From the NCBI GenBank assembly GCA_035550055.1, contig DASZRO010000059.1, forward strand, positions 1 through 44,908: a stretch of 44,908 nt of DNA, written 5' to 3'. Shown piece by piece: positions 2,957 to 33,474 of this stretch (the stretch's first letter is position 1; every line of letters starts with the position of its first letter). Made by a program: the position numbers and the translations under genes. Origin of the DNA: Mycobacteriales bacterium (lineage in GTDB: Bacteria; Actinomycetota; Actinomycetes; JAFAQI01). The notes under the pieces are model-generated. The model was not told the DNA's origin and ran no database searches. It was given only the letters and a program-made list of their open reading frames with translations.

Positions 2957-4477
2957 TCAGCTCGCGAACTGCTGCTTGCCGCTCCAGGTCCGGTCTCGCA
3001 GCACCCGGCGCAGCAGCTTGCCGGCCTGGTCGCGTGGGATCTCGTCGACCACGGTCACGGACCGGGGTCGCTTGTACGGCGCGAGGCGCTCGGTCGCGGT
3101 GGCGTCGAGGTTGCGCAGCACGGTGATCTCGTCCGCATCCGGCAGCAGCTGGACGAACACCGCCACGACTTCGCCTCGCTCGTCGTCGGGCGCGCCCACC
3201 GCGGCGAGGTCGGCGACGCCGGGTACGTCGCTGAGGGCCTGGTCGATCTCGGCGGGGTAGACGTTGACGCCGGCCGAAACGACGACTTCCGCCGCTCGCC
3301 CGCACAGGTAGAGGTAACCGTCGTCGTCGAGCCGGCCGATGTCGCCGACCGTGAACGCGTCGCCGACGTGTGCGTCTTCGGTCTTGGTGTCGTCGCCTTG
3401 GTAGTGGAACATTCGGCCCTTGCTCGGTGCGAAGTACACCGTGCCCTCGGTGCCGGGTGGCACGGCGTCGCCGTTGTCGTCGAGGATCTCGACGGCCATG
3501 CCGGGAAGTGGCCGACCGACGGTGCCAGGCCGGGTGCGCCATTCGTCGCGACGTACCACGGTCATCCCGCCTTCGGTGAAGCCGTAGTACTCCACGAGGA
3601 CGTCCCCGAGTACCTCGGCGATCGCCTCCTTGACGGGGATCGGGCACGGCTCGCCGCCGTGCAGCACCGTCCGCAGACCGGCCGGCCGCGCATCGCCTCG
3701 GACATCGGCGGGCAGCGCGAGGATCTGCCGGAACATCGTCGGCACCATGATCGTCGACGTCACGTCGTCGCGGCGCAGCTCGTCGAGGGCGAGGTGCGGA
3801 TCCCACTGCGGCATCACCCGCATCGTCGCGCCGCGCGCCATCGCGCCGAAGCCGAAGGTCTGTGGTGCGCCGTTGAACAGCCGCGAGCAGAACAGGTGTA
3901 CGCCGTCGCCGGGAAGCTCCAGCGCCTCGGCCCAGTAGGCGACGCCGGCCCAGCCGGTCGCGAACGGCGTGGTGCCCGAGCCGCGCATGACGACGCCCTT
4001 CGGGCGTCCCGTCGTGCCGGAGGTGTAGGGCATCTTGTAGCCGCAGCGGTCGTCGCCGAGCGGCTCGTCCGGCGCAGCGGCCAGCCAGGTCGAGTAATCC
4101 GCATCGTCGAGGTCGACACAGGGCAGGCCGCGTGAGTACGCCGCGGCGCGAGCTCCGTCGCGGTCGGTGACGACGACGGCGGTGCGCGCGTCGTCGAGGA
4201 CCGCGCCGACCTCGTCGGCGGTCCAGCCGGTCTTCAACGGCGTGTAGGCGCAGCCGGCCCGCCAGGCGCCGAGGAGCGCGACGACGAACTCGACGCGGTT
4301 GCTGACGCAGATCGCCACATGGGCGCCCGGGCGGGCACCGAGTGCCTCCAGGCCGTGACCGAAGCGGGTCGAGGCGTCTTCGAGCTCCCGCCAGCTCAGG
4401 CGCGTCGTACCGTCCTCGACCGCGATCCGCGAGTCGTCGGCGACCCCCGAGAGCTCGGCGAGGCTGGAGCGCCGCAT
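2957..4477 (-). CDS. Acyl-CoA synthetase (AMP-binding, FadD-like)
   Basis: A 506-residue ANL-superfamily adenylate-forming enzyme that activates a carboxylic acid to its CoA thioester through an acyl-AMP. Visible motifs are the P-loop YTSGTTGRPKGVV, EYYGFTEGG (core motif A5), GDIGRLDDDGYLYLCGR (A7/A8 with the hinge), GVNVYPAEID, and the C-terminal catalytic lysine in RDQAGKLLRRVL. It is the last gene of a minus-strand operon. Its ATG at 4477 shares the A of the preceding TGA stop (TGATG), so translation is probably coupled to the small acyl-CoA dehydrogenase. The frame is open further upstream, but that part overlaps the neighbour. The substrate is unknown; the partner dehydrogenases suggest a branched or polycyclic acid. 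Confidence 0.9.
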   Translation of the reverse strand: MRRSSLAELSGVADDSRIAVEDGTTRLSWRELEDASTRFGHGLEALGARPGAHVAICVSNRVEFVVALLGAWRAGCAYTPLKTGWTADEVGAVLDDARTAVVVTDRDGARAAAYSRGLPCVDLDDADYSTWLAAAPDEPLGDDRCGYKMPYTSGTTGRPKGVVMRGSGTTPFATGWAGVAYWAEALELPGDGVHLFCSRLFNGAPQTFGFGAMARGATMRVMPQWDPHLALDELRRDDVTSTIMVPTMFRQILALPADVRGDARPAGLRTVLHGGEPCPIPVKEAIAEVLGDVLVEYYGFTEGGMTVVRRDEWRTRPGTVGRPLPGMAVEILDDNGDAVPPGTEGTVYFAPSKGRMFHYQGDDTKTEDAHVGDAFTVGDIGRLDDDGYLYLCGRAAEVVVSAGVNVYPAEIDQALSDVPGVADLAAVGAPDDERGEVVAVFVQLLPDADEITVLRNLDATATERLAPYKRPRSVTVVDEIPRDQAGKLLRRVLRDRTWSGKQQFAS

Positions 4478-5388
4478 CACAGAAGGGTGGCGAGGTGGTC
4501 GGCGTGGTTGTCCGCGGTGCCGAACTCGGTGGCGTGCAGCCAGGTGCGCTTGAGCAGGAAGTGGACCGGCACCTCCCAGGTGAAGCCCATGCCGCCGTGC
4601 ACCTGGACGCACGACCTGGCGTTGCCGCACGCGGCCTCGTCGGCGAGCTGCTTGGCGCCTGACACCGCGCGTGCCGCGTCGCCGACCTCCGGGTCGTCGA
4701 GGGTGACGGCGGCGGCGTGCAGCGAGGCACGGGCGAGCTCGGTACGCACGAGCATGTCCGCGCACAGGTGCTTGACCGCCTGGAACGACCCGATCGGCCG
4801 GTCGAACTGCTCGCGGGTCTTCGCGTAGTCGACCGCCAGCTCGGTCATCCGCGCCGCCAGCCCCACCTGCAGCGCAGCGGTCAGCAGCGCGCCCTGCTGA
4901 GGCAGCGGCGGAGTCTGTCCGTCGTACGGCGACCCGTCGGGCACCGTCGACAGCTCGAACAACGGGCTGAGCGGGTCGATCGGCTCGGGGAGCGCGACGC
5001 CGGACGGCGCAGCCGCGATCGCTGCCGTGTCGCCATCGAGGACCAGCAGCGACCGTGCGACGTCGAGATGAGCCGCGAGCAGCGGTCGCCGATCAGCTTC
5101 GAGCACGGCGACCGGGGCCTCGACCACGCCCGAGACGCCGGCGGTCAGGAACGTCCCCACGAGCGGACCGGGGACGGCGGCCCGGCCGAGCTCCTCGAAC
5201 ACCATGACCGACTCGACGAAGCCCAGCCCGAGCTCGGTGCGCAGCGAGAACACGCCGGTCTCTTCCAGCGTCTTCCACACGGCCGCGTCGAATCCGGCGG
5301 GCAGCTTCTCCAACGGAAACGCGGAGTCGAGGACCTCGCGCACCCCGCGCTGCAGCCCGAGCTGGTCCTCGGTCGGCAGGAAGTACAT
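4477..5388 (-). CDS. Acyl-CoA dehydrogenase, small partner subunit
   Basis: A 303-residue acyl-CoA dehydrogenase-like protein, shorter than the usual 380-400. Its C-terminal half is typical: YAKTREQFDRPIGSFQAVKH, then QVHGGMGFTWEVPVHFLLKR. It lacks a glutamate both at the medium-chain-type site (YEGT, here GGMGFT) and in the helix-G 'ERG' position. In actinobacterial steroid degradation such short proteins pair with a full-length FadE to form heterotetramers with one FAD site per heterodimer. The adjacent upstream gene encodes the expected full-length partner. The ATG at 5388 lies at the very end of a 164-bp palindromic element that fills the gap between the two subunit genes. The stop overlaps the synthetase start. 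Confidence 0.85.
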   Translation of the reverse strand: MYFLPTEDQLGLQRGVREVLDSAFPLEKLPAGFDAAVWKTLEETGVFSLRTELGLGFVESVMVFEELGRAAVPGPLVGTFLTAGVSGVVEAPVAVLEADRRPLLAAHLDVARSLLVLDGDTAAIAAAPSGVALPEPIDPLSPLFELSTVPDGSPYDGQTPPLPQQGALLTAALQVGLAARMTELAVDYAKTREQFDRPIGSFQAVKHLCADMLVRTELARASLHAAAVTLDDPEVGDAARAVSGAKQLADEAACGNARSCVQVHGGMGFTWEVPVHFLLKRTWLHATEFGTADNHADHLATLL

Positions 5389-5551
5389 AGGTCGTCCCGC
5401 CCTATCCCTTGCCCTGCTGCGCGGCGCCCGGCATGCCCGCTCGCTTCGTTGTCGTCGTCGGCGGTAGCGCCGCTACCGCACTCCTCCTCCGCCTTGCGAG
5501 CGGCCATCCGGACACCGCTCGCGACGGCCAGGGACAGGGCGGCACGACCTA
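5388..5551. repeat. 164-bp nested inverted-repeat element filling the gap between two acyl-CoA dehydrogenase genes
   Basis: The whole intergenic gap is one nested palindrome. The ends, 5388-5408 (TAGGTCGTCCCGCCCTATCCC) and 5531-5551, are inverted repeats with 19 of 21 positions complementary, beginning and ending with TA. Inside, 5429-5445 pairs with 5497-5512 (CCGCTCGC against GCGAGCGG plus flanking matches). At the centre GCGGTAGCG (5461-5469) and CGCTACCGC (5471-5479) make a perfect 9-bp hairpin with a 1-nt loop. The right end overlaps the stop codon of the upstream gene and the left end touches the ATG of the downstream gene. It looks like a small non-autonomous (MITE-like) insertion or a long structured mRNA spacer. 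No transposase is present. Confidence 0.75.
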
Positions 5552-6733
5552 GCGCTCCTTCGGCAGGCCGAGGATGCGCTCGCCGATGATGTTGCGCTGG
5601 ATCTGCGAGGTGCCGGCGGCGATCGTGTAGGACAGCGAGTTCAGCCGTTCCGTCGTCCACTCGCCGACGGGCAGGCCGGCGATGTCGGTGCGCGACACGG
5701 CCGCCCGGTCGAGCACCCGCGCGCCGAGATCCATCAGCCGCTGTCGTGCCTCCGTGTAGCGCAGCTTCAGCACCGACGCGCTCACCCCCGGTACGCCGGA
5801 GCCCGCCTCCGTCACACCACGCTTGGTCAGCGCCCACAGCGCGTCGAACTCCGCCGCCATGTGGCCGATGTCGCGGCGCAGCCCGCGGTCCTCCCACGCG
5901 ACGCCGGCGGATGACGTGACCTTCTTGGCGATCGCCGCGAGATCGGTGACCAGCCGGACCGAGTCGACGATCTGGTCGACCCACGCGGTACCCCGCTCGA
6001 ACGACAGCGTGACCATCGTCACTCGCCACCCGTCGTTCTCCTCGCCGACCCGGTTGGCCACCGGGATCCGGACGTCATCGAAGAAGACCTCGGAGAACTC
6101 GCTCGATCCGAGCAACGTGTTGAGCGGGCGAACCGTGAGGCCGGGAGAGTCCATCGACATCATCAGCCAGCTGATGCCTTTGTGCTTGGGCGCATCCGGG
6201 TCGGTACGCACCAGCAGCTCGCAGTAGTCGGCGACCTCGGCGTGCGACGTCCAGATCTTGTGCCCGTTGACGACGTACTCGTCGCCGTCCCGTACCGCGC
6301 GCGTCCGCATCGACGCCAGGTCCGAGCCCGATCCCGGCTCACTGAAGCCCTGACACCAGATCTCCTCACCGGACAGGATCTTCGGCAGGTGGTCGGCGCG
6401 TTGCTCGGGCGTGCCCTCCGTGACGATCGTCGGACCGGCGTGGAGCAGCCCGACGAAGTTGACCCCGACGTACGGCGCGCCGGCGCGCTCGGTCTCCTCG
6501 AGAAAGATCAGGTGTTCGGTGGGTGTCGCGCCGCGTCCGCCGTACTCCGTCGGCCAGTTGATCCCGGCGTACCCGGCGTCGAACAGCAACCGTTGCCAGG
6601 CGGTGTCATAGCGGCGGCGGCCCGGCCAGTCCGTGTGATGCGGCTTGTCCCCGAGCGTCGGCAGCGTGCGCGCGAGCCAGTCGCGCAGCTCTTCTCGGAA
6701 GGCCCGCTCGGCGTCCGAGTCGCGCAGGTCCAC
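5549..6733 (-). CDS. Acyl-CoA dehydrogenase, full-length FAD-binding subunit (FadE-like)
   Basis: A 394-residue flavin dehydrogenase that introduces an alpha-beta double bond into an acyl-CoA. FAD- and substrate-binding segments are visible: WCQGFSEPGSGSDLASMRTR (residues 127-145), KIWTSHAEVADYCELLVRT, and AAGTSQIQRNIIGERILGLP at the C-terminus. The medium-chain-type base is absent (AAGTSQ instead of YEGT), but Glu246 in LSFERG lies in helix G, where isovaleryl-CoA and steroid side-chain dehydrogenases carry theirs. The start is GTG at 6733: a TAGTCT -10 box ends 7 nt upstream and a palindromic operator abuts it. The frame stays open to 6793, but that extension merely translates the operator (LTGRQ). 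First gene of the minus-strand operon. Confidence 0.9.
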   Translation of the reverse strand: MDLRDSDAERAFREELRDWLARTLPTLGDKPHHTDWPGRRRYDTAWQRLLFDAGYAGINWPTEYGGRGATPTEHLIFLEETERAGAPYVGVNFVGLLHAGPTIVTEGTPEQRADHLPKILSGEEIWCQGFSEPGSGSDLASMRTRAVRDGDEYVVNGHKIWTSHAEVADYCELLVRTDPDAPKHKGISWLMMSMDSPGLTVRPLNTLLGSSEFSEVFFDDVRIPVANRVGEENDGWRVTMVTLSFERGTAWVDQIVDSVRLVTDLAAIAKKVTSSAGVAWEDRGLRRDIGHMAAEFDALWALTKRGVTEAGSGVPGVSASVLKLRYTEARQRLMDLGARVLDRAAVSRTDIAGLPVGEWTTERLNSLSYTIAAGTSQIQRNIIGERILGLPKER

Positions 6734-6740
6734 GCGCGCA

Positions 6741-6765
6741 AGACTAATCTGACGCCCCGTCAGAT
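6741..6765. promoter_or_regulatory. TCTGACG-N3-CGTCAGA operator with -10 box, divergent dehydrogenase/SDR promoter
   Basis: ATCTGACG-CCC-CGTCAGAT (6747-6765) is a perfect palindrome with 8-bp arms. On the minus strand the -10 box TAGTCT (6746-6741) touches it directly, followed by 7 nt and the GTG at 6733. Its centre lies 23 nt from that start. The divergent SDR gene starts 76 nt to the right, so one site may control both operons. The same palindrome recurs at 11905, 27026, 29316, 29370 and, degenerate, at 33475. Confidence 0.8.
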
Positions 6766-6776
6766 CTCTTACGAAG

Positions 6777-6809
6777 TCGCTCGATTTGCTCACGACTCCG
6801 CGGGGGCCC
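6777..6809 (+). repeat. 33-bp dispersed repeat, copy 1
   Basis: This copy matches 10068-10100 at 28 of 33 positions. The right half (GCTCACGA, one variable base, TCCGCGGGGGCCC) is otherwise identical. It lies between the operator and the SDR start. Confidence 0.55.
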
Positions 6810-6840: not shown

Positions 6841-7599
6841 GTGGGCAGGCTGGACGACAAGGTCGTGATCGTGACCGGCGCCGGTCAGGGCATCGGCGAG
6901 GGGATCGCGCTCGCTGCCGCCGCCGAAGGCGCGAAGATCGTCGCCGCCGGGCGGACGTTGGAGAAGGTCGAGCGCACGATCGCGACGATCGTCGGGCGGG
7001 GTGGCGAAGGCCTCGCGTTGCGCTGTGACGTCCGCCGCCAGGACGAGATCGGCGCCGCGGTCGCGGCCACGCTCGACCGGTTCGGTCGCATCGACGGTCT
7101 GGTCAACAACGCCCAGATGGTCTCGCTCGGTCCGGTGCTCGAGATCACCGAGGCCGACGCCCGCCGCACCTGGGAGAGCGGCTTCCTCGGCTCGCTGTGG
7201 TTCATGCAGGCCGCGCACCCCGCTCTGGTGCAGAGCAAGGGCTCGGTCGTCAATCTCGGCACCGGGTCCGCGTTGCGCAACGACCTCCCCGGGTTCGCGC
7301 TGTACGCCGGCACCAAGGAGATGATCCGCACCCTGTCGCGGATGGCCGCGCTCGAGTGGGGCAAGGACGGCATCCGTGTCAACGCGATGATCCCGAACGG
7401 GATGTCGCCAGGTCTCGAGATGTGGTCGCAGTTCGCTCCGGAGGAGTACGCGAACTTCGTCGACACCATCCCGCTCGGCCGGGTCGGCCGCCTCGAGGAG
7501 GACGTCGGGCGCGCCGTCGCGTTCCTGCTCAGCGAGGACGCGGCGTACGTCACCGGCTCGACCCTGATGGTCGACGGCGGTCAGGCTTATCTCCGATAG
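6841..7599 (+). CDS. Short-chain dehydrogenase/reductase (SDR)
   Basis: A 252-residue classical SDR, probably oxidising a 3-hydroxyacyl-CoA or another hydroxyl of the pathway intermediate with NAD(P). The cofactor motif TGAGQGIG is at residues 13-20. The usual NNAG is NNAQ here, the catalytic lysine is in YAGTKEM, and the C-terminal YVTGSTLMVDGG is standard. The catalytic serine falls in LGTGSAL. The GTG start at 6841 follows a purine-rich GAGGGTGGTGGC tract, a plausible ribosome-binding site. It is the first gene of a plus-strand operon with the next SDR 26 nt downstream. It is divergent from the acyl-CoA dehydrogenase, with a shared operator between. Confidence 0.9.
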   Translation: MGRLDDKVVIVTGAGQGIGEGIALAAAAEGAKIVAAGRTLEKVERTIATIVGRGGEGLALRCDVRRQDEIGAAVAATLDRFGRIDGLVNNAQMVSLGPVLEITEADARRTWESGFLGSLWFMQAAHPALVQSKGSVVNLGTGSALRNDLPGFALYAGTKEMIRTLSRMAALEWGKDGIRVNAMIPNGMSPGLEMWSQFAPEEYANFVDTIPLGRVGRLEEDVGRAVAFLLSEDAAYVTGSTLMVDGGQAYLR

Positions 7600-7625
7600 C
7601 TCAGACGGACAGAGAGGCAACACCT

Positions 7626-8528
7626 GTGGGGATCTGCGACGACCGGGTGGTCATCGTCACCGGCGCCGGCGGGGGACTCGGCCGAGCACACGCGCTGGCC
7701 TTCGCCGCGGAAGGCGCCGCCGTGGTCGTGAACGACATCGGCACCTCCCGCGAGGGTGAGGGCAGCTCGGCCGGGCCGGCGCAGGCGGTCGTCGACGAGA
7801 TCCGTGCCGCGGGCGGCGAAGCCGTCGCCGACACCTCCGACGTCGCGGACTGGGAGGGCGCCAAAGCGCTCGTCGACACCGCGCTCGACGCCTTCGGTCA
7901 GCTCGACGTGCTCGTCAACAACGCCGGCTTCCTGCGCGACCGGATGCTCGTCGGCACCTCGATCGAGGAGTGGGACGCCGTCGTACGCGTCCACCTCCGG
8001 GGACACTTCTGCACGTTGCGGCATGCCGCCGAGTACTGGCGAGAACAGTCGAAAACCGGCACGCAGCGGGATGCGCGCATCGTCAACACCTCCTCCGGCG
8101 CGGGCCTGATGGGCAGCGTCGGCCAGGGCAACTACAGCGCCGCGAAGGCCGGCATCGTCGGGCTGACTCTGGTCGCTGCGGCGGAACTGGCCAGGTACGG
8201 CGTGACGGTCAACGCGATCGCGCCCGCAGCGCGCACCCGGATGACCGAGGTCGCGATGCCGGAGATGATGAAGGCGCCCGAGGAAGGCTTCGATGCGATG
8301 GCTCCCGAGAACGTCTCCCCGCTCGTCGTCTGGCTCGGATCGCCGGAGTCCCGAGAAGTGACCGGTCGCGTCTTCGAGGTGGAGGGCGGTGTGGTGGGCG
8401 TCGCGGACGGCTGGCAACACGGTCCCAAGGTCGACAAGGGCGAGCGATGGTCGCCGGCCGAGCTGGGTCCTGTCGTGCGCGACCTGCTCGCGCAGGCACC
8501 GGCGCCGAGTCCGGTGTACGGCGCATGA
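7626..8528 (+). CDS. SDR of the 3-hydroxyacyl-CoA dehydrogenase type (HSD17B4/FabG-like)
   Basis: A 300-residue SDR with a longer C-terminus than FabG. Cofactor motif TGAGGGLGRAHAL at residues about 13-25, then VVVNDIGTSREGEG, an acidic NAD-type site with the insertion seen in multifunctional-enzyme-2 dehydrogenases. The catalytic set is NNAG, NTSSGAG and NYSAAKAG. The tail (GPKVDKGERWSPAELGPVVRDLL) is typical of SDRs acting on acyl-CoAs in actinobacterial catabolic clusters. The GTG at 7626 has a GAGAGG ribosome-binding site. Its stop overlaps the next start as ATGA, so it is translationally coupled to the acyl-CoA synthetase. The likely role is oxidation of the 3-hydroxyacyl-CoA made by the enoyl-CoA hydratase downstream. 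Confidence 0.9.
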   Translation: MGICDDRVVIVTGAGGGLGRAHALAFAAEGAAVVVNDIGTSREGEGSSAGPAQAVVDEIRAAGGEAVADTSDVADWEGAKALVDTALDAFGQLDVLVNNAGFLRDRMLVGTSIEEWDAVVRVHLRGHFCTLRHAAEYWREQSKTGTQRDARIVNTSSGAGLMGSVGQGNYSAAKAGIVGLTLVAAAELARYGVTVNAIAPAARTRMTEVAMPEMMKAPEEGFDAMAPENVSPLVVWLGSPESREVTGRVFEVEGGVVGVADGWQHGPKVDKGERWSPAELGPVVRDLLAQAPAPSPVYGA

Positions 8529-10111
8529 GCACCTTGTTGGAGGCGCCGACGATCTGGGAGCTGGTCCGCCGTCGCGCGGAGCTGTCCGGTGACCGGCCGT
8601 TGCTGCTCGAACCGTCCGGTCGCACGGTCGGCTTCGCACAGTTCGCCGCTGACGTCGAGCAGGTGGCATCCGGCCTGTACGCGATGGGCATCGGCCCGGG
8701 CACGAAGGTCACCTGGCAGCTGCCGACCCGGGTCGAGAGCATCGTCGTCTCCATGGCCCTCGCCCGGCTCGGCGCGGTCCAGAATCCGATCCTGCACCTG
8801 TACCGGGAGCGTGAGGTCGGCGCGGTGCTGCGGGCGAGCAAGCCGGAGTTCTTCATCGTTCCCGGAGTCTGGAAGGACCGCGACTTCGGGCAGATGGCCC
8901 GCGACCTTGCGGCTGACCTCGCGGCGGCGCCCACCGTCCTGGAGATCGGCACCGAGCTTCCGACCGGGGACGTCGCCGCGCTTCCCGAGCCTCCGGATTC
9001 GGGCACCGACGTGCGCTGGGTGTACTACACCTCCGGCACCACGTCGGAGCCGAAGGGGGTCCAGCACACCGACCAGACGCTGATGGCGGGCGGGCGGGGA
9101 TTGGCGGCGGCACTGGACATGTCGCCCGACGACATCGGGTCGATGGCGTTCCCGTACTCCCACATCGCCGGACCGGACTACCTGCTGATGATGCTGTCGG
9201 CAGGGTTCGGCGCGGTGCTGATCGAGGCGTTCGTCCCCGCCGAGGCGGTCGCGGCGTACCGCGAGCTCGGCGTGACGATGTGTGGCGGCAGCACGGCGTT
9301 CTATCAGATGTTCCTCGCCGAGCAGCGCAAGTCGCCAGGGGAGCCGATCATCCCGACGCTGCGGATCATGTCCGGTGGCGGAGCGGCGAAGCCACCCGAG
9401 CTGTTCTACGACGTGGCCAAGGAGATGGGCGTCCGGCTGGTTCACGGCTACGGCATGACCGAGGTGCCGATGATGGCGATGGGGTCGCCCCACGACACCG
9501 ACGAGCAGCTCGCCTACACCGACGGCAAGCCGGTGCTCGGCGCCGAGATCCGGATCGTCAAGGACGACGGGACGGTTGCGGGCCCGGACGAGGAGGGCGA
9601 GATCCGTCTCAACGGTCCGGTGGTCTGCGTCGGGTACACCGACCCGGCGGTCAACGCGGAAGCGTTCGACGCCGACGGCTGGTTTCGCACCGGGGATCTG
9701 GGCGTGCTGCGCGCCGACGGCCATCTTCGACTGACGGGCAGGCTCAAAGACGTCATCATCCGCAAGGGCGAGAACATCTCCGCCCGCGAGCTCGAAGACG
9801 TTCTGTTCAACCACCCCAAGGTGGGTGACGTCGCGGTCATCGGGGTGCCCGACGAGGAGCGGGGGGAGCTGGTCTGCGCCGTGGTCGAGACCGCGGCCGG
9901 TGCGCAGCCGATCTCCTTCGAGGAGATGGTGGGGTGGTGCAAGGACGCCGGACTGATGACGCAGAAGATCCCGGAGCGGTTGGAGATCGTGGCATCGCTG
10001 CCGCGAAACGAGACCCTGAACAAGGTGCTGAAGTTCAAGCTCCGCGAGCAGTTCTCATCCCACGAGCTCGCTCGCGCCGCTCACGATTCCGCGGGGGCCC
10101 CGAATGACTGA
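8525..10111 (+). CDS. Acyl-CoA synthetase (AMP-binding)
   Basis: A 528-residue ANL enzyme that activates an acid to its CoA ester. Motifs: YYTSGTTSEPKGVQHT (P-loop), VHGYGMTEVPMM, WFRTGDLGVLRADGHLRLTGR with the hinge, DVIIRKGENISARELE, and a C-terminal lysine in LNKVLKFKLRE where the acylation lysine is expected. It resembles cyclohexanecarboxylate/AliA-type or FadD-type ligases, but I would not fix the substrate. The ATG at 8525 overlaps the preceding stop by 4 nt. Its last 15 residues (ELARAAHDSAGAPND) are encoded by the dispersed 33-bp repeat and overlap the hydratase start by 8 nt, so the native C-terminus may have been extended by repeat insertion. Confidence 0.9.
   Translation: MSTLLEAPTIWELVRRRAELSGDRPLLLEPSGRTVGFAQFAADVEQVASGLYAMGIGPGTKVTWQLPTRVESIVVSMALARLGAVQNPILHLYREREVGAVLRASKPEFFIVPGVWKDRDFGQMARDLAADLAAAPTVLEIGTELPTGDVAALPEPPDSGTDVRWVYYTSGTTSEPKGVQHTDQTLMAGGRGLAAALDMSPDDIGSMAFPYSHIAGPDYLLMMLSAGFGAVLIEAFVPAEAVAAYRELGVTMCGGSTAFYQMFLAEQRKSPGEPIIPTLRIMSGGGAAKPPELFYDVAKEMGVRLVHGYGMTEVPMMAMGSPHDTDEQLAYTDGKPVLGAEIRIVKDDGTVAGPDEEGEIRLNGPVVCVGYTDPAVNAEAFDADGWFRTGDLGVLRADGHLRLTGRLKDVIIRKGENISARELEDVLFNHPKVGDVAVIGVPDEERGELVCAVVETAAGAQPISFEEMVGWCKDAGLMTQKIPERLEIVASLPRNETLNKVLKFKLREQFSSHELARAAHDSAGAPND
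10068..10100 (+). repeat. 33-bp dispersed repeat, copy 2
   Basis: This is the partner of the copy at 6777-6809 (28/33 identical). It lies inside the 3' end of the acyl-CoA synthetase gene and supplies its final residues, ending 4 nt before the hydratase ATG. Confidence 0.55.
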
Positions 10112-10925
10112 TGCACACCACGGGGTGGTCACCGAAAGCTCGGAAGGCGTGCTGACGATCACCCTCGACCGGCCGGACGTGCACAACGCCCTCGACTGGC
10201 AGGCCCGCGAGGAGCTGGTGGCGGCGTTTGCTCGGGCGAGCGCCGACGCTGCGGTGCGCGCGGTCGTCCTGACCGGTGCCGGCGATCGCGCGTTCTGCAC
10301 CGGCGCGGACCTGCGGGTGCCGATGCCCTCGATCGCGAAGCCGGAAGGTGCGCCGGCGCGCACTCAAGGCGACATTGCGCGTGGCATCGCGACCGGCTGG
10401 CAGCGAGTGGTGACGGCGGTGCTGGACTGTGACAAGCCGGTCGTCGCCGCCGTCAACGGCACCGCGGCGGGCGCAGGCATGCACCTGGCACTCGCCTGCG
10501 ACGTCGTGGTCATGTCCGAGTCGGCGAAGCTCGTACCGGTCTTCGTCCGGCGCGGCATCGCGCCGGACGCGGCGGGCGCCTACCTGTTGAGCCGGCTCGT
10601 CGGCCCGATGCGCGCCAAGCAGATCTACCTCTTCGGCGACGACGTGCCGGCGGCCCGCGCTTCGCAGTGGGGTCTGGTCAGCGAGCTGGTTCCGGCAGAG
10701 CGGACCGTCGAGGTCGCCACCGAGCTGGCGACCCGGCTGGCAAGCGGGCCTACTCGGGCTCTGGCAGTGACGAAGCGGTTGGTCAACCACGCGATGGACG
10801 TCGATCGTGAGGCTGCCCTCGCCGAAGAGGCGTGGGGTCAGGAGCTCGTGATGACCAGCGAGGATGCTCAGGAGGGCGTTCGTGCATTCGTCGAGCGCCG
10901 CGAGACTTCGTTCAGGGGCTGGTGA
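10104..10925 (+). CDS. Enoyl-CoA hydratase/isomerase (crotonase family)
   Basis: A 273-residue crotonase-fold protein, expected to hydrate an enoyl-CoA to the 3-hydroxyacyl-CoA. Visible features: ITLDRPDVHNALDW at the N-terminus, AFCTGADLRVP (oxyanion-hole strand), VNGTAAGAGMHLALACDVVVMSE (second oxyanion Gly), and VRRGIAPDAAGAYLLSRLVG. At the catalytic positions an Asp is present in PDAAG, while the first glutamate of rat hydratase is not obvious, so isomerase or lyase activity is possible. It sits in the operon after the acyl-CoA synthetase with an 8-nt overlap, and 3 nt before an SRPBCC gene. It supplies the hydration step between the dehydrogenase and SDR reactions. Confidence 0.88.
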   Translation: MTDAHHGVVTESSEGVLTITLDRPDVHNALDWQAREELVAAFARASADAAVRAVVLTGAGDRAFCTGADLRVPMPSIAKPEGAPARTQGDIARGIATGWQRVVTAVLDCDKPVVAAVNGTAAGAGMHLALACDVVVMSESAKLVPVFVRRGIAPDAAGAYLLSRLVGPMRAKQIYLFGDDVPAARASQWGLVSELVPAERTVEVATELATRLASGPTRALAVTKRLVNHAMDVDREAALAEEAWGQELVMTSEDAQEGVRAFVERRETSFRGW

Positions 10926-10928: not shown

Positions 10929-11366
10929 ATGCCGTCGACGTACGACGTTCGGGTGAGCTGCAAGGCGCCGCAGCAAAAGGTCTTCGATCTGGTTGCGGAC
11001 GCGACGAGCTGGCCGAAGTGGGCGGGTCCGGTGATCCGGTGGGGCGGCTGGGTCGTCGAAGGTGAGCCGGCTCCCGGCGGCGTCGGTGCGATCCGCAAGC
11101 TCGGCTCGAAGCAGCTGGGCACTCGCGAGCAGATCATCGAGTACGACCCGCCGCACTACATGGCGTACACGATCCTCACGCCGATGCCGGTCAGGGACTA
11201 CCGCGCGATCGTGTCGATCGATCCCGAAGGGGACGGCTGCCGCATCACGTGGGCCGCGAGCTTCGAGGGGAAGTTCCCCGGCGCCGGCGCCGCGACGGCC
11301 TGGGGACTGAAGCGCTTCATCGGCAACCTGGTGGTCCGGCTCGCCCGTTACGCAGAGACGCACTAG
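10929..11366 (+). CDS. SRPBCC-fold polyketide-cyclase/lipid-binding-like protein
   Basis: A 145-residue START/SRPBCC-fold protein: N-terminal strand TYDVRVSCKAPQQKVFDLVAD, then ATSWPKWAGPVIRWG, the usual 'W..W' helix-strand turn. After mid-strands (EQIIEYDPPHYMAYTIL, YRAIVSIDPEGDGCRITW) comes a long C-terminal helix. The fold makes a deep hydrophobic pocket that binds lipids, polyketides or CoA intermediates. In this operon it may carry or shield a hydrophobic pathway intermediate, or act as a cyclase; this is inference. It starts 3 nt after the hydratase stop and ends 2 nt before the DUF2505 gene, which has the same general fold, so two lipid-pocket proteins are encoded in tandem. Confidence 0.8.
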   Translation: MPSTYDVRVSCKAPQQKVFDLVADATSWPKWAGPVIRWGGWVVEGEPAPGGVGAIRKLGSKQLGTREQIIEYDPPHYMAYTILTPMPVRDYRAIVSIDPEGDGCRITWAASFEGKFPGAGAATAWGLKRFIGNLVVRLARYAETH

Positions 11367-11368
11367 CC

Positions 11369-11872
11369 GTGAAGCTGCGGCTGGAGCACCACTACGACGC
11401 GGACGTCGAGACGGTGTACGCGTTGATCAGCGACCCAGGCTTCATCGAGCGCAAGTACGTCGCGCTCGGCGGCCGTGGCGTCGCGGTCGACCGAACCGAC
11501 GACGACGCCGGCGGCTGCGAGGTCGTCACCAGGCGCACCGTCGACATCGAGCTCCCCGGGTTTGCCAAGAAGGTGCTGACGCCGAGCCAGACCGCCGTAC
11601 AGACCGAGACGTGGGCCGCGGCCGACTCGTCGGGCGTGCGGGAGTGCAGGTACCGGGTCGAGGTGCAGGGCGTGCCGTCGCGCGTCGAGGGCACCCACTC
11701 GCTGCGCCCGGCCCCCGGTGGTGGCACCGACCACACGATCGACATCGATGCGAAGGTGTCGATTCCCCTGCTCGGCGGTCGCCTCGAGAAGCTCGCCGCA
11801 GACCACGGCCGCGACGATATCGACGCCCAGTTCAGCTACACCGACCGGGAGCTTGCCACCCCCGCTGCCTAG
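11369..11872 (+). CDS. DUF2505 domain protein (SRPBCC-like)
   Basis: A 167-residue protein of DUF2505, an actinobacteria-typical family related to the SRPBCC fold. The signature start is LRLEHHYDADVETVYALISDPGF, followed by IERKYVALGG, and then by TRRTVDIELPGFAKKVLTPSQ and a repeated-strand core ending with LEKLAADHGRDDIDAQFSYT. Function is unknown; a lipid-binding role is suggested by fold and by the SRPBCC gene just upstream. The GTG start at 11369 is 2 nt after the preceding stop. It is the last gene of the operon, and the next gene has its own operator-controlled promoter about 35 nt downstream. Confidence 0.82.
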   Translation: MKLRLEHHYDADVETVYALISDPGFIERKYVALGGRGVAVDRTDDDAGGCEVVTRRTVDIELPGFAKKVLTPSQTAVQTETWAAADSSGVRECRYRVEVQGVPSRVEGTHSLRPAPGGGTDHTIDIDAKVSIPLLGGRLEKLAADHGRDDIDAQFSYTDRELATPAA

Positions 11873-11941: not shown

Positions 11942-13279
11942 ATGCGCGGGGTTCTCGGATGGGGCGTGCACGTCCCGCATCGGCGGCTGGACCGTACGCA
12001 GATCGCGGCGGTCGCCGGGACCGGCGGCGGCAAGGGCACCCGCGCGGTCGCGTCGTACGACGAGGACTCCACGACCATGGCGGTCGAGGCTGGGCGGGCG
12101 TGCCTCGCGTCGGTCGACGTGTCGCCGCAGTCGCTGTGGTTCGCGACGACCAGCCCGACCTACCTCGACAAGACGAACGCCACGGCGATTCACGCCGCAC
12201 TTCGCCTGGACCGGGCCGCGGCGGCCTACGACTCGATCGGGTCGGTACGGTCCGCCGTCGCCGCGTTGCGCGGCTGTTTCGAGGCAGGCAAGGCGGCACT
12301 CGCCGTCGCCGGTGACGTCCGCATCGGACGGCCCGGCTCTGCCGACGAGGCGGCGGGTGGCGACGCGGCCGCGGCGTTGCTCGTCGGTGACGAAGCGGAC
12401 GGGCCGCTGCTCGCGGAGCTGCGCGGCTACGCCTGCGTGACCGAGGAGTTCATCGACCGCTGGCGGGTGCCCGGTGATGCCGGGTCGAAGGTCTGGGAGG
12501 AGCGCTTCGGCGAGACGAAGTACGCGCCGCTGGCCGCGGAGGCGCTGAAGACGGCGCTCGGCTACGCCGGGATCGGTCCGGAGGACGTCGACGCGCTCGT
12601 GGTCGCCGGGCTGCACGAGCGGGCCTGCGCAGCTGCGGCCAAGTCATCGGGAGTCGCTGCGGAGAAGGTCGTCGACCGCCTCGCGGCCTCGGTCGGAAAC
12701 CCGGGCGCCGCCCAGCCGTACCTGCTGCTGGCTCGCGCCCTGGAACAAGCCGAGCCGGGCCAGACGATCGTGCTCCTGGTGCTCTCCGACGGCGCGGACG
12801 CGCTGGTGCTCACCACCACCGCGGCGATTGCGACGTACGCCCCGCGCCGCCTCGTCGGCGCCGAGATCATCGCCGGGGCCCCGGTCTCCTACGGTCGCTA
12901 TCTGTCCTGGCGCGGTCTGCTCGAAGTGGAGCCGCCGCGGCGCCCGGAGCCGGCCCGGCCTTCGGCGAGCGCGGCAGGGCGGTCGACCGATTGGAAGTTC
13001 GGGCTGGAAGGTGCCGGAGGCGCCCTGGCTGACCAGCGCGGCACGGTGACGACGTTCACGGTCGACCGGCTCGCGTACTCGCAGAGCCCGCCGGTCGTCT
13101 TCGCGGTGGTCGACTTCGACGACGGTCGCCGGCTGCCGGTCGAGCTGACCGACGTCGACGCTGACGAGGTCGCGATCGGCATGCGGGTGGAGATGACCTT
13201 CCGTCGCCTGTTCACCGCGGACGGGATCGCGAACTACTTCTGGAAGGCGCGGCCGACACGAGCGGAGGATCCGTCTTGA
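11942..13279 (+). CDS. HMG-CoA-synthase-like thiolase-fold protein fused to a DUF35 OB-fold domain
   Basis: A 445-residue two-domain protein. Residues about 1-310 have the HMG-CoA synthase/KAS-III fold: GVLGWGVHVPHRRLD at the N-terminus, LWFATTSPTYLDKTNAT, EAAGGDAAAALLVGDEADG, VVAGLHERACAAAAK. The loop that should hold the nucleophilic Cys reads YDSIGSVRSAVAAL, so Ser98 or no nucleophile replaces it. After a Pro-rich linker, residues about 355-440 form a DUF35 OB-fold (GTVTTFTVDRLAYSQ, FAVVDFDDGRRLPVELT, IGMRVEMTFRRLF) without its usual N-terminal zinc ribbon. In archaea separate HMGCS, DUF35 and thiolase proteins assemble into one complex. Here the first two are fused and the thiolase is the next gene, overlapping by 4 nt (TTGA). 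Confidence 0.85.
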   Translation: MRGVLGWGVHVPHRRLDRTQIAAVAGTGGGKGTRAVASYDEDSTTMAVEAGRACLASVDVSPQSLWFATTSPTYLDKTNATAIHAALRLDRAAAAYDSIGSVRSAVAALRGCFEAGKAALAVAGDVRIGRPGSADEAAGGDAAAALLVGDEADGPLLAELRGYACVTEEFIDRWRVPGDAGSKVWEERFGETKYAPLAAEALKTALGYAGIGPEDVDALVVAGLHERACAAAAKSSGVAAEKVVDRLAASVGNPGAAQPYLLLARALEQAEPGQTIVLLVLSDGADALVLTTTAAIATYAPRRLVGAEIIAGAPVSYGRYLSWRGLLEVEPPRRPEPARPSASAAGRSTDWKFGLEGAGGALADQRGTVTTFTVDRLAYSQSPPVVFAVVDFDDGRRLPVELTDVDADEVAIGMRVEMTFRRLFTADGIANYFWKARPTRAEDPS

Positions 13280-14463
13280 GCTCTCATGGGATTCGCGATC
13301 GCGTCGCCATCGTCGGGATGGGTTGCACGCGATTCGCCGAGCACTTCGACAAGGGCACCGACGACCTGCTTCGGGAGGCCACGACCGAGGCATTTGCCGG
13401 CGCCGGCGTCACCAAGGACGACGTCGACGCGTACTGGCTGGGCACCGCTCAGTCCGGCATGAGCGGGATCACGCTCGCGCGACCGCTGCAGCTCGACGGC
13501 AAGCCGGTGACCCGGGTCGAGAACTTCTGCGCCACCGGTTCGGAGGCGCTGCGGCAAGCGGCGTACGCCGTTGCCTCCGGCGCGTACGACCTGGCGATGG
13601 CCGTCGGCGTGGAGAAGGTGAAGGACTCGGGCTACCAGGGACTCAACGCCTTCCCGATCCCCAACGACGGCACTCAGCGGTCGCTGACCGCGGCGGCCAT
13701 GTTCTCGATGGTGGCGCCGGCGTACGCCAAGCGGTACGGGGTCGATCCCGACGAGATGCGCACGGTTCTGGCGAGGATCGCCTCGAAGAACCATGCGAAC
13801 GGCGCTCGCAACCCTAAGGCGCAGTTCCGCAAGGAGATGCCGGTCGAGAAGCTGGTCGCGATGCCGGCCGTCGCCGGCGGGCTGAGCGTCTTCGACTGTG
13901 CCGGGGTCGCCGACGGCTGCGCCGCCGCAATCGTGTGCCGGGTCGAGGACGCAGCCAGGTACACGGACCGGCCGCTGGTCATCAAGGCGTTGTCGTTCGT
14001 CGCCGGCAACGGGTCCGGTCTGGAGGACCCGTCCTACGACTACACCCAGTTCCCGGAGGTGGCCGCTTCCGCCGCCGACGCCTACGCGCAGGCCGGCATC
14101 TCCGATCCGCGCTCGGAGCTCGCGATGGCCGAGGTCCATGACTGCTTCACCCCGACCGAGCTCGTGCTCATGGAGGACCTCGGCTTCTGCGAGCGCGGGA
14201 CGGCCTGGAAAGAGGTCCTGGCGGGCACCTTCGAGCGAGACGGGGAGCTGCCCGTCAACCCCGACGGCGGTTTGAAGTCCTTCGGTCATCCGGTCGGCGC
14301 CTCGGGACTGCGAATGATGTATGAGGCATGGCTGCAGCTGCGGGGTGAGGCACCCGAGGAACGGCGCATCGCGACCTACGGGAAGCGGTCGCTGGCGCTG
14401 ACGCACAACCTCGGCGGCTATCCCGGGGAGATGGTCAGCTTCGTCGGAATCGTGGGCATCTAG
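13276..14463 (+). CDS. Thiolase / lipid-transfer-protein (SCP-x type)
   Basis: A 395-residue thiolase-superfamily protein. Cys85 in VENFCATGSEALRQA is the acyl-accepting nucleophile; His288 in MAEVHDCFTPTE and His338 in LKSFGHPVGASG complete the active site. The C-terminal Cys of biosynthetic thiolases is replaced by HNLGGYPGEMV, as in SCP-x and Ltp-type proteins. Ltp2-like members with a DUF35 partner act as retro-aldolases in steroid side-chain removal, while others are thiolases. The start is TTG at 13276, overlapping the upstream TGA, with GGAGGA about 6 nt before. Coupled translation with the HMGCS/DUF35 gene supports a shared complex catalysing the C-C cleavage step. Confidence 0.9.
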   Translation: MSSHGIRDRVAIVGMGCTRFAEHFDKGTDDLLREATTEAFAGAGVTKDDVDAYWLGTAQSGMSGITLARPLQLDGKPVTRVENFCATGSEALRQAAYAVASGAYDLAMAVGVEKVKDSGYQGLNAFPIPNDGTQRSLTAAAMFSMVAPAYAKRYGVDPDEMRTVLARIASKNHANGARNPKAQFRKEMPVEKLVAMPAVAGGLSVFDCAGVADGCAAAIVCRVEDAARYTDRPLVIKALSFVAGNGSGLEDPSYDYTQFPEVAASAADAYAQAGISDPRSELAMAEVHDCFTPTELVLMEDLGFCERGTAWKEVLAGTFERDGELPVNPDGGLKSFGHPVGASGLRMMYEAWLQLRGEAPEERRIATYGKRSLALTHNLGGYPGEMVSFVGIVGI

Positions 14464-14468
14464 GTGGG

Positions 14469-15539
14469 GTGACCCGAAGCCACGACGAGCTCGCCGAGCT
14501 CTACGACGACCCTGCCCGGTGCGCGGAGGTCGCCGGGCTGACGTACGTGAGCGTGGACGAGCCGGGCATCCGCCGAGTGCGCCATGGCCGCGGCTTCAGC
14601 TATCGCTACGCCGACGGCATGGTGGTCGGTGCTGCCGTTCGCGAACGCATCGCTGCGCTGGTGATCCCGCCGGCCTGGCAGGACGTGTGGATCTGTCGCG
14701 ACGAACAAGGCCATATCCAGGCGGTCGGCACCGACGATCGCGGCCGTCGGCAGTACCTGTACCACCCGCGGTGGCGGGAGGTCCGCGACCATCTCAACTT
14801 CTGCCGGCTGGCCGGCTTCGGCGAGCGCTTGCCGATGGTGCGCGCAGACATCGAGGCCCAGCTGCGGCGGCGCACCGTCGACCGCGACCTGGTGATCGCC
14901 GCGATGTTGCGCATCGTCGACTGTTGCGGCATCCGCGCCGGATCTGAGATCTACGCCGAGGAGAACGACTCGTTCGGCCTGAGCACCTTGGCGAGACGGC
15001 ACGTGAGCGTGCGCGGGAGGCAGGTGAGGTTCTGCTTCCCGGCGAAGTCCGGCCGGCGCGCTGAGGTGAGCATCGAGGACGCCGCCGTCGCCCGGGTCGT
15101 CCGACAGCTGCTGGCCCGCCCGGGACGGCGGCTGTTCGTCGTGGACGGTACGACGCTCGGTGCGGACGAGGTCAACCAGCGGCTCGCGGCGCTCGCCGGC
15201 GCCCGGGTCACCCTGAAGGACTTCCGCACGTGGCGAGGCACGCGCGAGGCGTTCGGGTACCTGCGCGCTCATCTCGACAGCGACGAGCGGGAGGGGGAAG
15301 TGGTGGCGGCGGTCGATGCCGCGGCTGAACAGCTGGGGAACACTCGCGCGGTGGCGCGCGCCCACTACGTTCATCCCGCCGTCGTCGAGGGGTATCTCGA
15401 CGGCGGCCTCGAGCGGTTCCTGCGCGGCTGGCGGGGCCGGGCGCGTCGCGGTCTCGACCGCGACGAGACCGCCCTGCTCAGCTATCTCGACGCCGTGATG
15501 CGCGACCCGCTCGCGGCGATCCGCGGCCACGCGAGCTGA
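14469..15539 (+). CDS. DNA topoisomerase IB (poxvirus-like bacterial type)
   Basis: A 356-residue bacterial type IB topoisomerase that relaxes supercoils through a 3'-phosphotyrosine intermediate. The N-terminal domain contains IPPAWQDVWICRDEQGHIQA and GRRQYLYHPRWREVRD. The catalytic domain shows CCGIRAGSEIYAEEN (first Arg), TLKDFRTWRGT (second Arg) and the nucleophile Tyr300 in AVARAHYVHP. The GTG start is 6 nt after the thiolase stop, so it may be read from the catabolic operon although the function is unrelated. A GGTGGGGT tract overlaps the junction. It converges with the aldo/keto reductase gene, 12 nt between stops. Confidence 0.93.
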   Translation: MTRSHDELAELYDDPARCAEVAGLTYVSVDEPGIRRVRHGRGFSYRYADGMVVGAAVRERIAALVIPPAWQDVWICRDEQGHIQAVGTDDRGRRQYLYHPRWREVRDHLNFCRLAGFGERLPMVRADIEAQLRRRTVDRDLVIAAMLRIVDCCGIRAGSEIYAEENDSFGLSTLARRHVSVRGRQVRFCFPAKSGRRAEVSIEDAAVARVVRQLLARPGRRLFVVDGTTLGADEVNQRLAALAGARVTLKDFRTWRGTREAFGYLRAHLDSDEREGEVVAAVDAAAEQLGNTRAVARAHYVHPAVVEGYLDGGLERFLRGWRGRARRGLDRDETALLSYLDAVMRDPLAAIRGHAS

Positions 15540-15551
15540 CGACGGCCCTGC

Positions 15552-16544
15552 CTAGTCCGCGTTCAGCCAGGGCTGCGCGTCGATCTCGCGCCAGATGTCC
15601 TTGGACAGCGCGGTCGATGCCCATTCGACGTCCGTGGCCACCTCGGTGACGTTGCGCATGCCGCAGATCACCGAGGTGACTGCGGGGTGCTGGAACGGGA
15701 AGCGCAGTGCGGCGTGTGGCATCTGCATCGAGTGCGACCGACACAGCTCAGCCATCCGCCGGGCCGTGGCGAGCACCGACGCCGGCGCCGCCACGTAGTC
15801 GAACCGGGCGCCTACCTCTGGCCAGTCGCTGGCCAGCAGCTCGCTGTTGAAGGGTGCGGCGGCGAGCACGGAGACCCCTCGCTCCAGGCAGTCGTCGAGC
15901 AGCGCTTTCGCCGAACGGTCGATCAGGGTCCAGCGTCCGGCTACGAGCAGCACGTCGACGTCGGTCTCGGCAGCAATCCGGGACAGCGGCGAGACGTAGT
16001 TCATCCCGGCCCCGACCGCTTTGATCACGCCCTGGTCGCGCAGCTCGATGAGCGCGGGCAGCGCCTCGTCGATCGCCTGGTCGAGGAAGTCGTCCGGGTC
16101 GTGTACGAGAGCGATGTCGATGCGATCGAGACCGAGCCGATCGAGGCTTTGGTCGATGCTGCGCAGCACGCCGTCGCGGCTGAAGTCCCATTGCCGGGTG
16201 AGGTCGTCGGGGACGTCGTAGCCGGCAATGCCGAGATCTGAGCCGCACGGCGCCGGGTTGGGCACGAGCAGGCGCCCCACCTTGGTGGAGACGACGTAGG
16301 TGTCGCGGGGCTTCGTTCGCAAGGCCGCGCCCAGCCGGCGCTCGGACAGGCCGAGCCCATAGTGCGGAGCGGTGTCGAAGTAGCGGATGCCGCCGGCCCA
16401 GGCCGCCTCGACTGCGGCGTACGCGTCCTCGTCGCTGACCGCGGAGTACATGTTGCCCAGCGCGGTGCCACCGAAGCCGAGCTCGGTCACGAACAGCCCG
16501 CTGCTGCCGATCTGGCGGCGAGGCAGCACTCCACCGGCCGACAT
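15552..16544 (-). CDS. Aldo/keto reductase, L-fucose/D-threo-aldose dehydrogenase-like
   Basis: A 330-residue aldo/keto reductase with the standard tetrad: Asp57 and Tyr62 in YFDTAPHYG, Lys88 in VVSTKVGRLL and His in IALVHDPDD. The stretch LIELRDQGVIKAVGAGMNY and VAGRWTLID is characteristic of sugar 1-dehydrogenases acting on L-fucose, D-arabinose or other D-threo-aldoses. It diverges from the sugar ABC transporter genes, which suggests it oxidises the imported sugar. The ATG at 16544 is chosen because the protein fold begins there (LPRRQIGSSGLFVTELG). The frame is open to 16778, but that stretch has no family similarity. A LacI-type site lies about 217 nt upstream. Confidence 0.85.
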   Translation of the reverse strand: MSAGGVLPRRQIGSSGLFVTELGFGGTALGNMYSAVSDEDAYAAVEAAWAGGIRYFDTAPHYGLGLSERRLGAALRTKPRDTYVVSTKVGRLLVPNPAPCGSDLGIAGYDVPDDLTRQWDFSRDGVLRSIDQSLDRLGLDRIDIALVHDPDDFLDQAIDEALPALIELRDQGVIKAVGAGMNYVSPLSRIAAETDVDVLLVAGRWTLIDRSAKALLDDCLERGVSVLAAAPFNSELLASDWPEVGARFDYVAAPASVLATARRMAELCRSHSMQMPHAALRFPFQHPAVTSVICGMRNVTEVATDVEWASTALSKDIWREIDAQPWLNAD

Positions 16545-32625: not shown

Positions 32626-33462
32626 TCAGGCCAGCCAGTCGAGGATTCGTTTGTTGATCTCGGTCGGGTTCTCGAGGTGCAGGAAGTGGCCGACCCCTTC
32701 GACGATGTCGACGCGTGATTCCTCGGAGAGGTTCTGCTCTGTCCCGGCCACGCCCTCGACGCCGAAGGCGCCGTCCTCGGTGCCGTGCAGATACAGCGTC
32801 GGCTGGGTGGGCGTGCCGTCACCACCCCCGACGGTGAACATCGCGCGGTAGTAGCCGATCGCTGCGGCGAGGTTCGCCGGCGCCCACAGCGCGTCCTTCA
32901 CGTGCGGCAGGTCGGCGGAGCCGTCGTACGACGGAGACCAGTCGGCCCACAGCTTCTCGATGAAGACCAGGTCATCGGCACCCACCACGATGTCGGCGAG
33001 CGGGGTCTGGAACAGCATGATGTAGAAGCTGCGCTTGAGCTGCTCGTAGCGGAAGAACGCGTTCGTCGCGACGCCGGGTGGCGGCACCGCCAGGGTGACC
33101 AGCCGCCGCCAGTTCCCGGGCTGGTTCGCGGCCGCGTTGTACGTCGCGAGGGCACCCCAGTCGTGACCGATCAGTACGGCGTCACTGTCACCGCCGAGCG
33201 CGTCGTGCAGCGCGTTCGCATCCGAGGCCAGCGCGACGGCCGAGTAGTCACCGTCGCTCGGCACCATCGTCGGCGCGTACCCGCGAGTCCATGGCGCGAC
33301 GGCTCGGTAACCCGCCGCGGCCAGCTCGGGCAGCAGGTGCCTCCAGGTGTGCGCGGAGTCGGGAAACCCGTGCAAGCACAAGGCGAGCGGCCCGGTGTCG
33401 CCACACGTCAGCGCGCCGAAGGTCAGTCCGTTGGCGTCGACCGTCGTCTGCTCGATGTCCAT
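32626..33462 (-). CDS. Alpha/beta hydrolase, epoxide hydrolase-like
   Basis: A 278-residue alpha/beta hydrolase. The oxyanion motif is LHGFPDSAHTW and the nucleophile elbow is LIGHDWGALATY, with Asp at the nucleophile position as in epoxide hydrolases and haloalkane dehalogenases. The catalytic His is in EGVGHFLHLENP and a cap domain lies between residues about 135 and 205. ATG 33462 is preferred: GGAG lies 5 nt upstream (ACGGAGTGGCGATG); GTG 33468 is possible. It diverges from an acyl-CoA dehydrogenase across a 48-bp gap containing a degenerate operator, so it probably belongs to the same regulon and may open an epoxide or hydrolyse a ring intermediate. Confidence 0.88.
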   Translation of the reverse strand: MDIEQTTVDANGLTFGALTCGDTGPLALCLHGFPDSAHTWRHLLPELAAAGYRAVAPWTRGYAPTMVPSDGDYSAVALASDANALHDALGGDSDAVLIGHDWGALATYNAAANQPGNWRRLVTLAVPPPGVATNAFFRYEQLKRSFYIMLFQTPLADIVVGADDLVFIEKLWADWSPSYDGSADLPHVKDALWAPANLAAAIGYYRAMFTVGGGDGTPTQPTLYLHGTEDGAFGVEGVAGTEQNLSEESRVDIVEGVGHFLHLENPTEINKRILDWLA

Positions 33463-33474
33463 CGCCACTCCGTT

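Follow-up and report, generated by a model that had tools for sequence, protein, structure and literature searches.

The acetoacetyl-CoA thiolase/HMGCS/DUF35 complex of Methanothermococcus thermolithotrophicus (6ESQ, 6ET9) consists of three separate proteins, with an active hydroxymethylglutaryl-CoA synthase (HMGCS) and a role in the mevalonate pathway (PMC6392133). An inactive HMGCS-like subunit that accompanies a DUF35 subunit and an active thiolase is already known from the acyltransferase PhlACB (PpATase, 5M3K), where the HMGCS-like subunit lacks the key cysteine and glutamate and only residues of PhlC act (PMC6392133, PMC2954200). The same holds for CsATase (9SKH), in which the HMGCS cysteine and glutamate are absent and the thiolase alone is active (PMC12955522), and, judging by PDB titles only, presumably for MucABC (9VBO). 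The steroid aldolases Ltp2-ChsH2 and Sal-Shy combine a thiolase fold with a DUF35 partner (PMC12329534), and fusions of DUF35 homologues with members of the thiolase superfamily were mentioned in general terms in 2010 (PMC2954200). Here we describe a gene pair at positions 11942–14463 of a 44,908-nucleotide contig from a Mycobacteriales bacterium (DASZRO010000059.1, assembly GCA_035550055.1; the whole contig is called the window), in which an HMGCS-like domain and a DUF35 OB fold are fused in one chain and encoded directly upstream of a thiolase. We consider it likely that the two open reading frames (ORFs) encode a two-gene thiolase/HMGCS-like/DUF35 complex responsible for the thiolytic step of a beta-oxidation operon. 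Judged by title and the opening of the abstract, none of the papers searched describes a dead HMGCS-like domain fused to an OB fold and encoded next to a thiolase; by this literature, the widespread actinobacterial fused chain, its near-obligate pairing with a PRK06157 thiolase and the stepwise loss of its zinc ribbon appear to be new.

Architecture of the fused chain

The window is one contig (C59) of a 3.5-Mb assembly (122 contigs, 98.75% complete). The gene pair comprises the following elements:

11942..13279, + strand: fused HMGCS-like and DUF35 OB-fold ORF, 445 aa (ORF and Pfam; AlphaFold2 pLDDT 89.5, pTM 0.91)
11942..12925, + strand: HMGCS-like domain, residues 1–328, catalytically dead as judged from sequence (alignment to archaeal HMGCS)
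12227..12253, + strand: former nucleophile loop YDSIGSVRS, residues 96–104, with Val102 at the Cys position (alignment)
12926..13030, + strand: linker, residues 329–363, with near-invariant Arg334 and Arg347 (alignment)
13031..13255, + strand: DUF35 OB-fold domain, residues 364–438, with a conserved YFWKA motif at its end (Pfam PF01796; best solved relative 6esq_E)
13264..13269, + strand: Shine-Dalgarno-like GGAGGA, 6 nt 5' of the thiolase TTG start
13276..14463, + strand: SCP2-type thiolase, 395 aa, TTG start (PRK06157/NF004810 equivalog)

The first-pass annotation of this DNA had placed HMGCS-like and DUF35 parts in a single chain with a thiolase ORF overlapping it by 4 nt, and both statements held. 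Two Pfam domains lie within the ORF at 11942–13279, ACP_syn_III_C at residues 209–284 and OB_ChsH2_C at residues 364–421, the OB fold (PF01796) scoring 54.5 bits against a cut-off of 27.1. The overlap is the sequence TTGA at 13276–13279, in which the stop codon TGA of the fusion ORF occupies 13277–13279 and the TTG start of the thiolase begins at 13276. Because the same fused layout occurs in two isolate assemblies, Thermomonospora echinospora DSM 43163 (L025) and Actinocorallia populi (L069), the fusion is not an assembly error.

Relatives were collected by scanning one genome per species (84,980 species), which gave 251 relatives, of which the best 80 were kept; the search patterns were drawn from the fusion family, and the 80 loci lean towards fused members. 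Among these best 80 of 251, the nearest named relatives of the fusion were metagenome-assembled genomes (MAGs) of Frankiaceae/Frankiales.

Loss of the HMGCS catalytic residues

In the alignment, Glu82, Cys114 and His238 of archaeal HMGCS correspond to Thr70, Val102 and Ala222 of the fused chain, respectively. The loop reads YDSIGSVRS after Ala95 and places Val102 opposite Cys114, which confirms the absence of the nucleophilic cysteine claimed by the first-pass annotation and adds the loss of the glutamate and the histidine. A family alignment of 112 rows was examined at the same sites; among its rows are the window, two truncated ones (L050, L084) and an identical pair (L066/L119), L118 was dropped as a copy of the window, and 35 of the 66 fusion matches of the phylum sample introduced below lie outside it. 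The HMGCS cysteine was found in 0/112 rows, the histidine in 0/112 and the glutamate in 0/111. Position 102 was variable (2.1 bits entropy), and over the whole chain there was no cysteine among the 47 positions conserved in at least 97% of the rows. A conserved cysteine aligning with the HMGCS nucleophile, which had been named in advance as the observation that would speak against a dead domain, was thus looked for in the 112 rows and not found. In addition, the fusion ORF scored 132.9 bits against NCBIfam PRK04262, below the cut-off of 244. The first ORF is without the catalytic Glu, Cys and His of HMG-CoA synthase, and its HMGCS-like half is, by alignment, dead. Since every HMGCS catalytic residue is missing, an HMGCS label would be misleading, and the nearest named families (hydroxymethylglutaryl-CoA synthase and acetyl-CoA acetyltransferase) would mislead pathway models. 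At the sites of the HMGCS Glu, Cys and His, PhlA carries Cys, Gly and Gln.

Two candidate replacements were rejected. A histidine, His225, lies near the old His site in 78 of the 80 close relatives, but the alignment puts Ala222 at that site and His225 three residues further on. Cysteines near the loop that might compensate were scattered over only 4 of the 80 rows.

The HMGCS-like half is under purifying selection: across five orthologue pairs its dN/dS was 0.15–0.31, compared with 0.08–0.15 for the OB fold and 0.055–0.088 for the thiolase. Four residues (Asp97, Asp125, Arg127 and Gly252) were present in 112/112 rows, and they bear on a refinement, compatible with the two-gene complex, in which the old pocket, adjoining the site of the thiolase, would bind either CoA or the acyl chain and so set substrate length or channel an intermediate. 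The active sites of PhlA and PhlC share one cavity, and CoA in 6ESQ lies where all three proteins meet (PMC6392133), as such binding would have it. Asp97, Asp125 and Gly252 are also common to active HMGCS and may be structural, and the HMGCS-like half evolves faster than the other two parts; we regard pocket binding as a tentative possibility that falls somewhat short of an even chance.

The thiolase and its relation to known complexes

The thiolase scored 591.4 bits against NCBIfam NF004810/PRK06157 (cut-off 403). The catalytic residues given for it in the first-pass annotation, Cys85 (13528–13530), His288 (14137–14139) and His338 (14287–14289), proved correct, and Cys290 (14143–14145), within the HDCF motif at 288–291, completes the set, in which the GHP motif is also kept. 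From what is generally held for SCP2-thiolases, we take Cys85 to accept the acyl group, Cys290 and His338 to act as acid/base, and His288 to help bind the thioester oxygen. Cys85, His288, Asp289, Cys290, Phe291 and His338 were invariant in all 73 complete thiolases, 6 of 79 having been left out as incomplete or broken by a stop. In one of the collected loci (L036), a stop follows thiolase residue 207, around 10043–10047, in an otherwise normal locus, owing to either sequencing error or decay. It is well supported that only the thiolase keeps a catalytic set, as judged from the residues, and the earlier proposal that it would be the only chemically active part agrees with this, with the thiolase set intact and the HMGCS Glu, Cys and His lost.

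The solved chain closest to the AlphaFold2 model of the fusion was the archaeal 6esq_I (Z 43.3, rmsd 2.0, 327 residues), followed by CsATase 9skh_C (Z 41.8), PhlA 5mg5_A (40.8) and MucABC 9vbo_A (38.2); free-standing HMGCS came behind these complex subunits, with a best Z of 35.9. A profile of the OB part ranked 6esq_E first and PhlB second. With the thiolase profile, 6esq_A scored best (238.6 bits), ahead of SCP2-thiolases (162.6), 7pxp_C (144.6), PhlC (110–115), and the lipid-transfer-protein chains 6ok1_A (106) and 9myr_A (99), which were solved with DUF35/dehydratase partners. 6ESQ is thus the best solved relative of all three parts, and because each part is closest to the matching archaeal subunit, the pair is read as a two-gene thiolase/HMGCS/DUF35 architecture. 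Both genes adjoin and all three homologous parts are present, as would be expected of a member of the thiolase/HMGCS-like/DUF35 complexes. The 6ESQ thiolase and the window's thiolase share the catalytic Cys, the His and the HDCF motif, but, unlike 6ESQ, the window has two of the parts on one chain, a dead HMGCS-like half and no zinc ribbon.

The combination of a dead HMGCS-like part, DUF35 and an active thiolase is shared with PhlACB, CsATase and MucABC, and the replacement of the HMGCS Cys and Glu seen in PhlACB-type acyltransferases is present here as Val102 and Thr70. However, these acyltransferases have separate HMGCS-like and DUF35 proteins in a biosynthetic setting, a separation found neither in the window nor in the 80 collected relatives, and the window has two genes in a beta-oxidation operon. 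CoA-free acyl transfer is a feature of PhlACB. Benzoylsuccinyl-CoA thiolase BbsAB (7PXP) combines DUF35 and a thiolase in a catabolic cluster and has, to our knowledge, no HMGCS-like part; the window's thiolase resembles it in having a DUF35 partner but reached only 137 bits against the NCBIfam BbsB model (cut-off 750).

The fused chain and the thiolase probably form one complex, whose binding and stoichiometry we infer from homology. The first-pass annotation had proposed such a complex, and the analysis supports this proposal by homology, each part being closest to the matching 6ESQ subunit. In the mechanism we envisage, the fused chain would stand in for two subunits. The dead HMGCS-like half would probably dimerise and form the core, by analogy with PhlA, while the OB fold, held on a linker with near-invariant arginines, would grip the thiolase dimer. 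Chemistry would be confined to the thiolase, the acyl group being transferred onto Cys85, and the complex would cleave 3-oxoacyl-CoA at the end of beta-oxidation, presumably in the thiolytic direction. A channelling complex would thereby have been rebuilt, with a second active site lost, two subunits fused and a zinc domain dropped in steps, the gene pair being kept throughout.

Conservation of the gene pair

The fused chain was present in 80/80 collected loci, and a thiolase lay downstream of it in 79, the exception ending at a contig edge. A sample of 396 genomes, spread evenly over the phylum to which the window belongs, contained the fusion in 55 genomes, a PRK06157 thiolase in 57 and both in 54. 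The thiolase was directly downstream in 63 of the 66 fusion loci of this sample; the other three are on the minus strand and start 60–223 bases from the contig start, and the thiolase would therefore lie off the contig. Six thiolases had no listed fusion: on reading, five had a whole or partial fusion upstream, one of these very divergent, and the sixth starts at base 3 of its contig. It is well supported that the fusion and thiolase genes are inherited as a unit, in near-obligate pairing. We consider it highly improbable that the two proteins act separately and merely share regulation, since the sample holds no readable thiolase of the PRK06157 subfamily without a fusion, and a dead domain working by itself would serve no obvious function, although the HMGCS-like half is maintained by purifying selection. 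A single chain joining all three parts was not found; in all eight unusually long open-frame regions read in the phylum sample, the thiolase was in another frame.

Some loci of the survey deserve separate mention. A very divergent fusion (L144, G147:C331), which shares about 22% identity with L120, retains its zinc ribbon and stands beside a PRK06157 thiolase; by eye, it has no cysteine at the old nucleophile loop. At L137 (G133:C1:1364500-1371500), two fusion–thiolase pairs lie in tandem. The zinc ribbon is intact in each, and a frame between the pairs resembles, by eye, an enoyl-CoA hydratase. Three records titled Bifidobacterium breve (L020, L048, L049) contain members of the fusion family, and on the tree their rows fall among those of other actinobacterial MAGs; these titles are probably wrong.

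Linker and zinc ribbon

The missing DUF35 zinc ribbon reported by the first-pass annotation was verified: the Pfam scan matched no zinc-ribbon model in the fused chain, and the stretch between the two domains of the window's chain contains no CxxC..CxxC pair and no cysteine. The compared inter-domain stretch is 25 residues long in the window versus 42–52 in most relatives, in which the ribbon or its remnant forms the 3' part of the linker. None of the 80 closest relatives has a CxxC..CxxC ribbon; most have a Cys-less loop instead, and the loop itself is gone in the window's clade. An intact four-Cys ribbon occurs within the same fused chain in 18 of the 112 rows, in more distant relatives, and since relatives of the fusion still carry it, its absence in the window is read as a secondary loss.

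A tree built from the HMGCS-like domain alone requires five changes among the three ribbon states, and most ribbon-bearing rows fall outside a large ribbon-less group. Deletion of the loop accounts for three changes, in the window's clade (6 rows, SH-aLRT 95), in L066/L119 and in L054. This tree was built by a quick method and has long branches; it is rooted on two distant outgroups, and the direction of ribbon change rests on that root. These data are consistent with a stepwise loss, in which a four-Cys ribbon would have given way to a Cys-less loop and this to a deletion on three branches, including the window's.

The homologues compared in PMC12329534 all bind zinc through four cysteines, apart from the protein of that study itself, where three Cys and one His do so, and PMC2954200 calls the zinc domain conserved in all DUF35 homologues. 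Complete loss of the ribbon is therefore unusual, as the homologues compared in PMC12329534 bind zinc. The loss suggests a changed substrate cleft: by analogy with the related Sal–DUF35 complex, where the ribbon shapes this cleft, its removal may open the acyl site. Rather unlikely, in our view, is the further-reaching idea that the old HMGCS pocket has become a permanent acyl/CoA chamber and that repeated ribbon loss has re-cut the cleft, which would give a distinct actinobacterial thiolase class whose specificity subunit is a pseudoenzyme and whose substrates are bulky or branched acyl-CoAs. The natural variants, with a ribbon, with a Cys-less loop or with no loop, offer a way of testing what the DUF35 zinc ribbon does.

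Operon context and reaction

Profile scans and neighbour comparison assigned the following genes to the surrounding cluster:

10104..10925, + strand: enoyl-CoA hydratase/isomerase family protein, same operon
10929..11872, + strand: two small START-like proteins (Polyketide_cyc2 family, DUF2505)
6841..10111, + strand: two short-chain dehydrogenases and an AMP-dependent acyl-CoA ligase, same operon
2957..6793, – strand: divergent half of the cluster, two acyl-CoA dehydrogenases and an acyl-CoA ligase whose true start is probably near 4480

In all, the cluster contains two acyl-CoA ligases, two acyl-CoA dehydrogenases, a hydratase, two short-chain dehydrogenases and two START-like proteins. This gene set would fit beta-oxidation of a CoA-activated acid, a substrate class suggested by the genes, in which the thiolase complex would perform the cleavage. 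Within the reach of the contigs, the Frankiales relatives share the cluster, and the ligase/short-chain dehydrogenase set is kept only there. In four loci of Thermomonospora/Actinocorallia/Streptosporangiaceae type (L021, L025, L069, L087), the hydratase and both dehydrogenases are downstream of the thiolase. Elsewhere, 31 of the 71 loci with enough upstream sequence encode a class III CoA-transferase no more than 3 kb upstream. The idea of one pathway for the whole fusion family was rejected, as the neighbours vary.

Some observations weigh against a two-gene complex with the role proposed here. Outside the Frankiales and the four loci just named, the neighbours differ and include class III CoA-transferases and other acyl-CoA dehydrogenases. 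Asp97, Asp125 and Arg127 are kept around the old pocket and may point to a role beyond that of a scaffold. That adjacent genes are inherited together is no proof that their products bind each other, and the Fisher test of co-occurrence over the 396 genomes ignores phylogeny.

The complex could also transfer acyl groups to a carbon nucleophile in a biosynthetic step, the direction in which PhlACB works, and its fold-level neighbours do include three acyltransferase complexes (PhlABC, CsATase and MucABC). The operon is nevertheless oxidative in content (acyl-CoA dehydrogenases, hydratase, dehydrogenases), the scan of operon genes showed no polyketide synthase, and the thiolase profile is nearer to archaeal acetoacetyl-CoA thiolase and to SCP2-thiolases than to PhlC, which makes acyl transfer very unlikely.

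The first-pass annotation had also pointed to steroid degradation, a link that the analysis does not support. KshA_C is absent from the window's genome, so that steroid rings are an unlikely substrate; within the order, 3 of 13 genomes have it, a distribution that does not follow that of the fusion. Steroid degradation was rejected as the pathway on this ground, leaving room for other side-chain catabolism. An Ltp2/Sal-type retro-aldolase acting on a steroid-like side chain would agree with the pairing of DUF35 domains with Ltp2 and Sal (PMC12329534) and with the further DUF35–thiolase pairs in the window's genome. Against it, the thiolase carries Cys85 and HDCF at 288–291 rather than the YDHF or YDCY motif of the Ltp2/Sal aldolases (PMC12329534), its profile scores for 6ok1_A and 9myr_A are lower, and the distribution of KshA_C gives no support; retro-aldol cleavage appears extremely improbable. 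A further difference from these aldolases is that the DUF35 domain of Shy is joined to a MaoC domain (PMC12329534, PMC11321319), whereas that of the window is joined to an HMGCS-like domain. The two-gene thiolytic complex remains the preferred interpretation.

Directly 3' of the thiolase, at 14469–15539 (+ strand), the window encodes a bacterial-type topoisomerase IB; a similar gene was present in 1 of the 80 collected loci.

Other DUF35–thiolase systems in the genome

The window's genome gave 8 OB_ChsH2_C and 11 Thiolase_C_1 matches. All seven contigs with an OB match (C5, C8, C20, C21, C59, C78, C111) also hold a nearby thiolase, corresponding to about seven DUF35–thiolase systems. On C8 near 33263–34717 (L094) and on C111 near 14423–15868 (L098), single chains consist of a DUF35 part followed by a lipid-transfer-type thiolase; their best NCBIfam model is PRK07855, below its cut-off, and they represent another way of fusing the same parts. 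At C78:5445-8409 (L097, L100), two adjacent DUF35-type matches stand beside a thiolase, and, by eye, a neighbouring frame may be P450-like.

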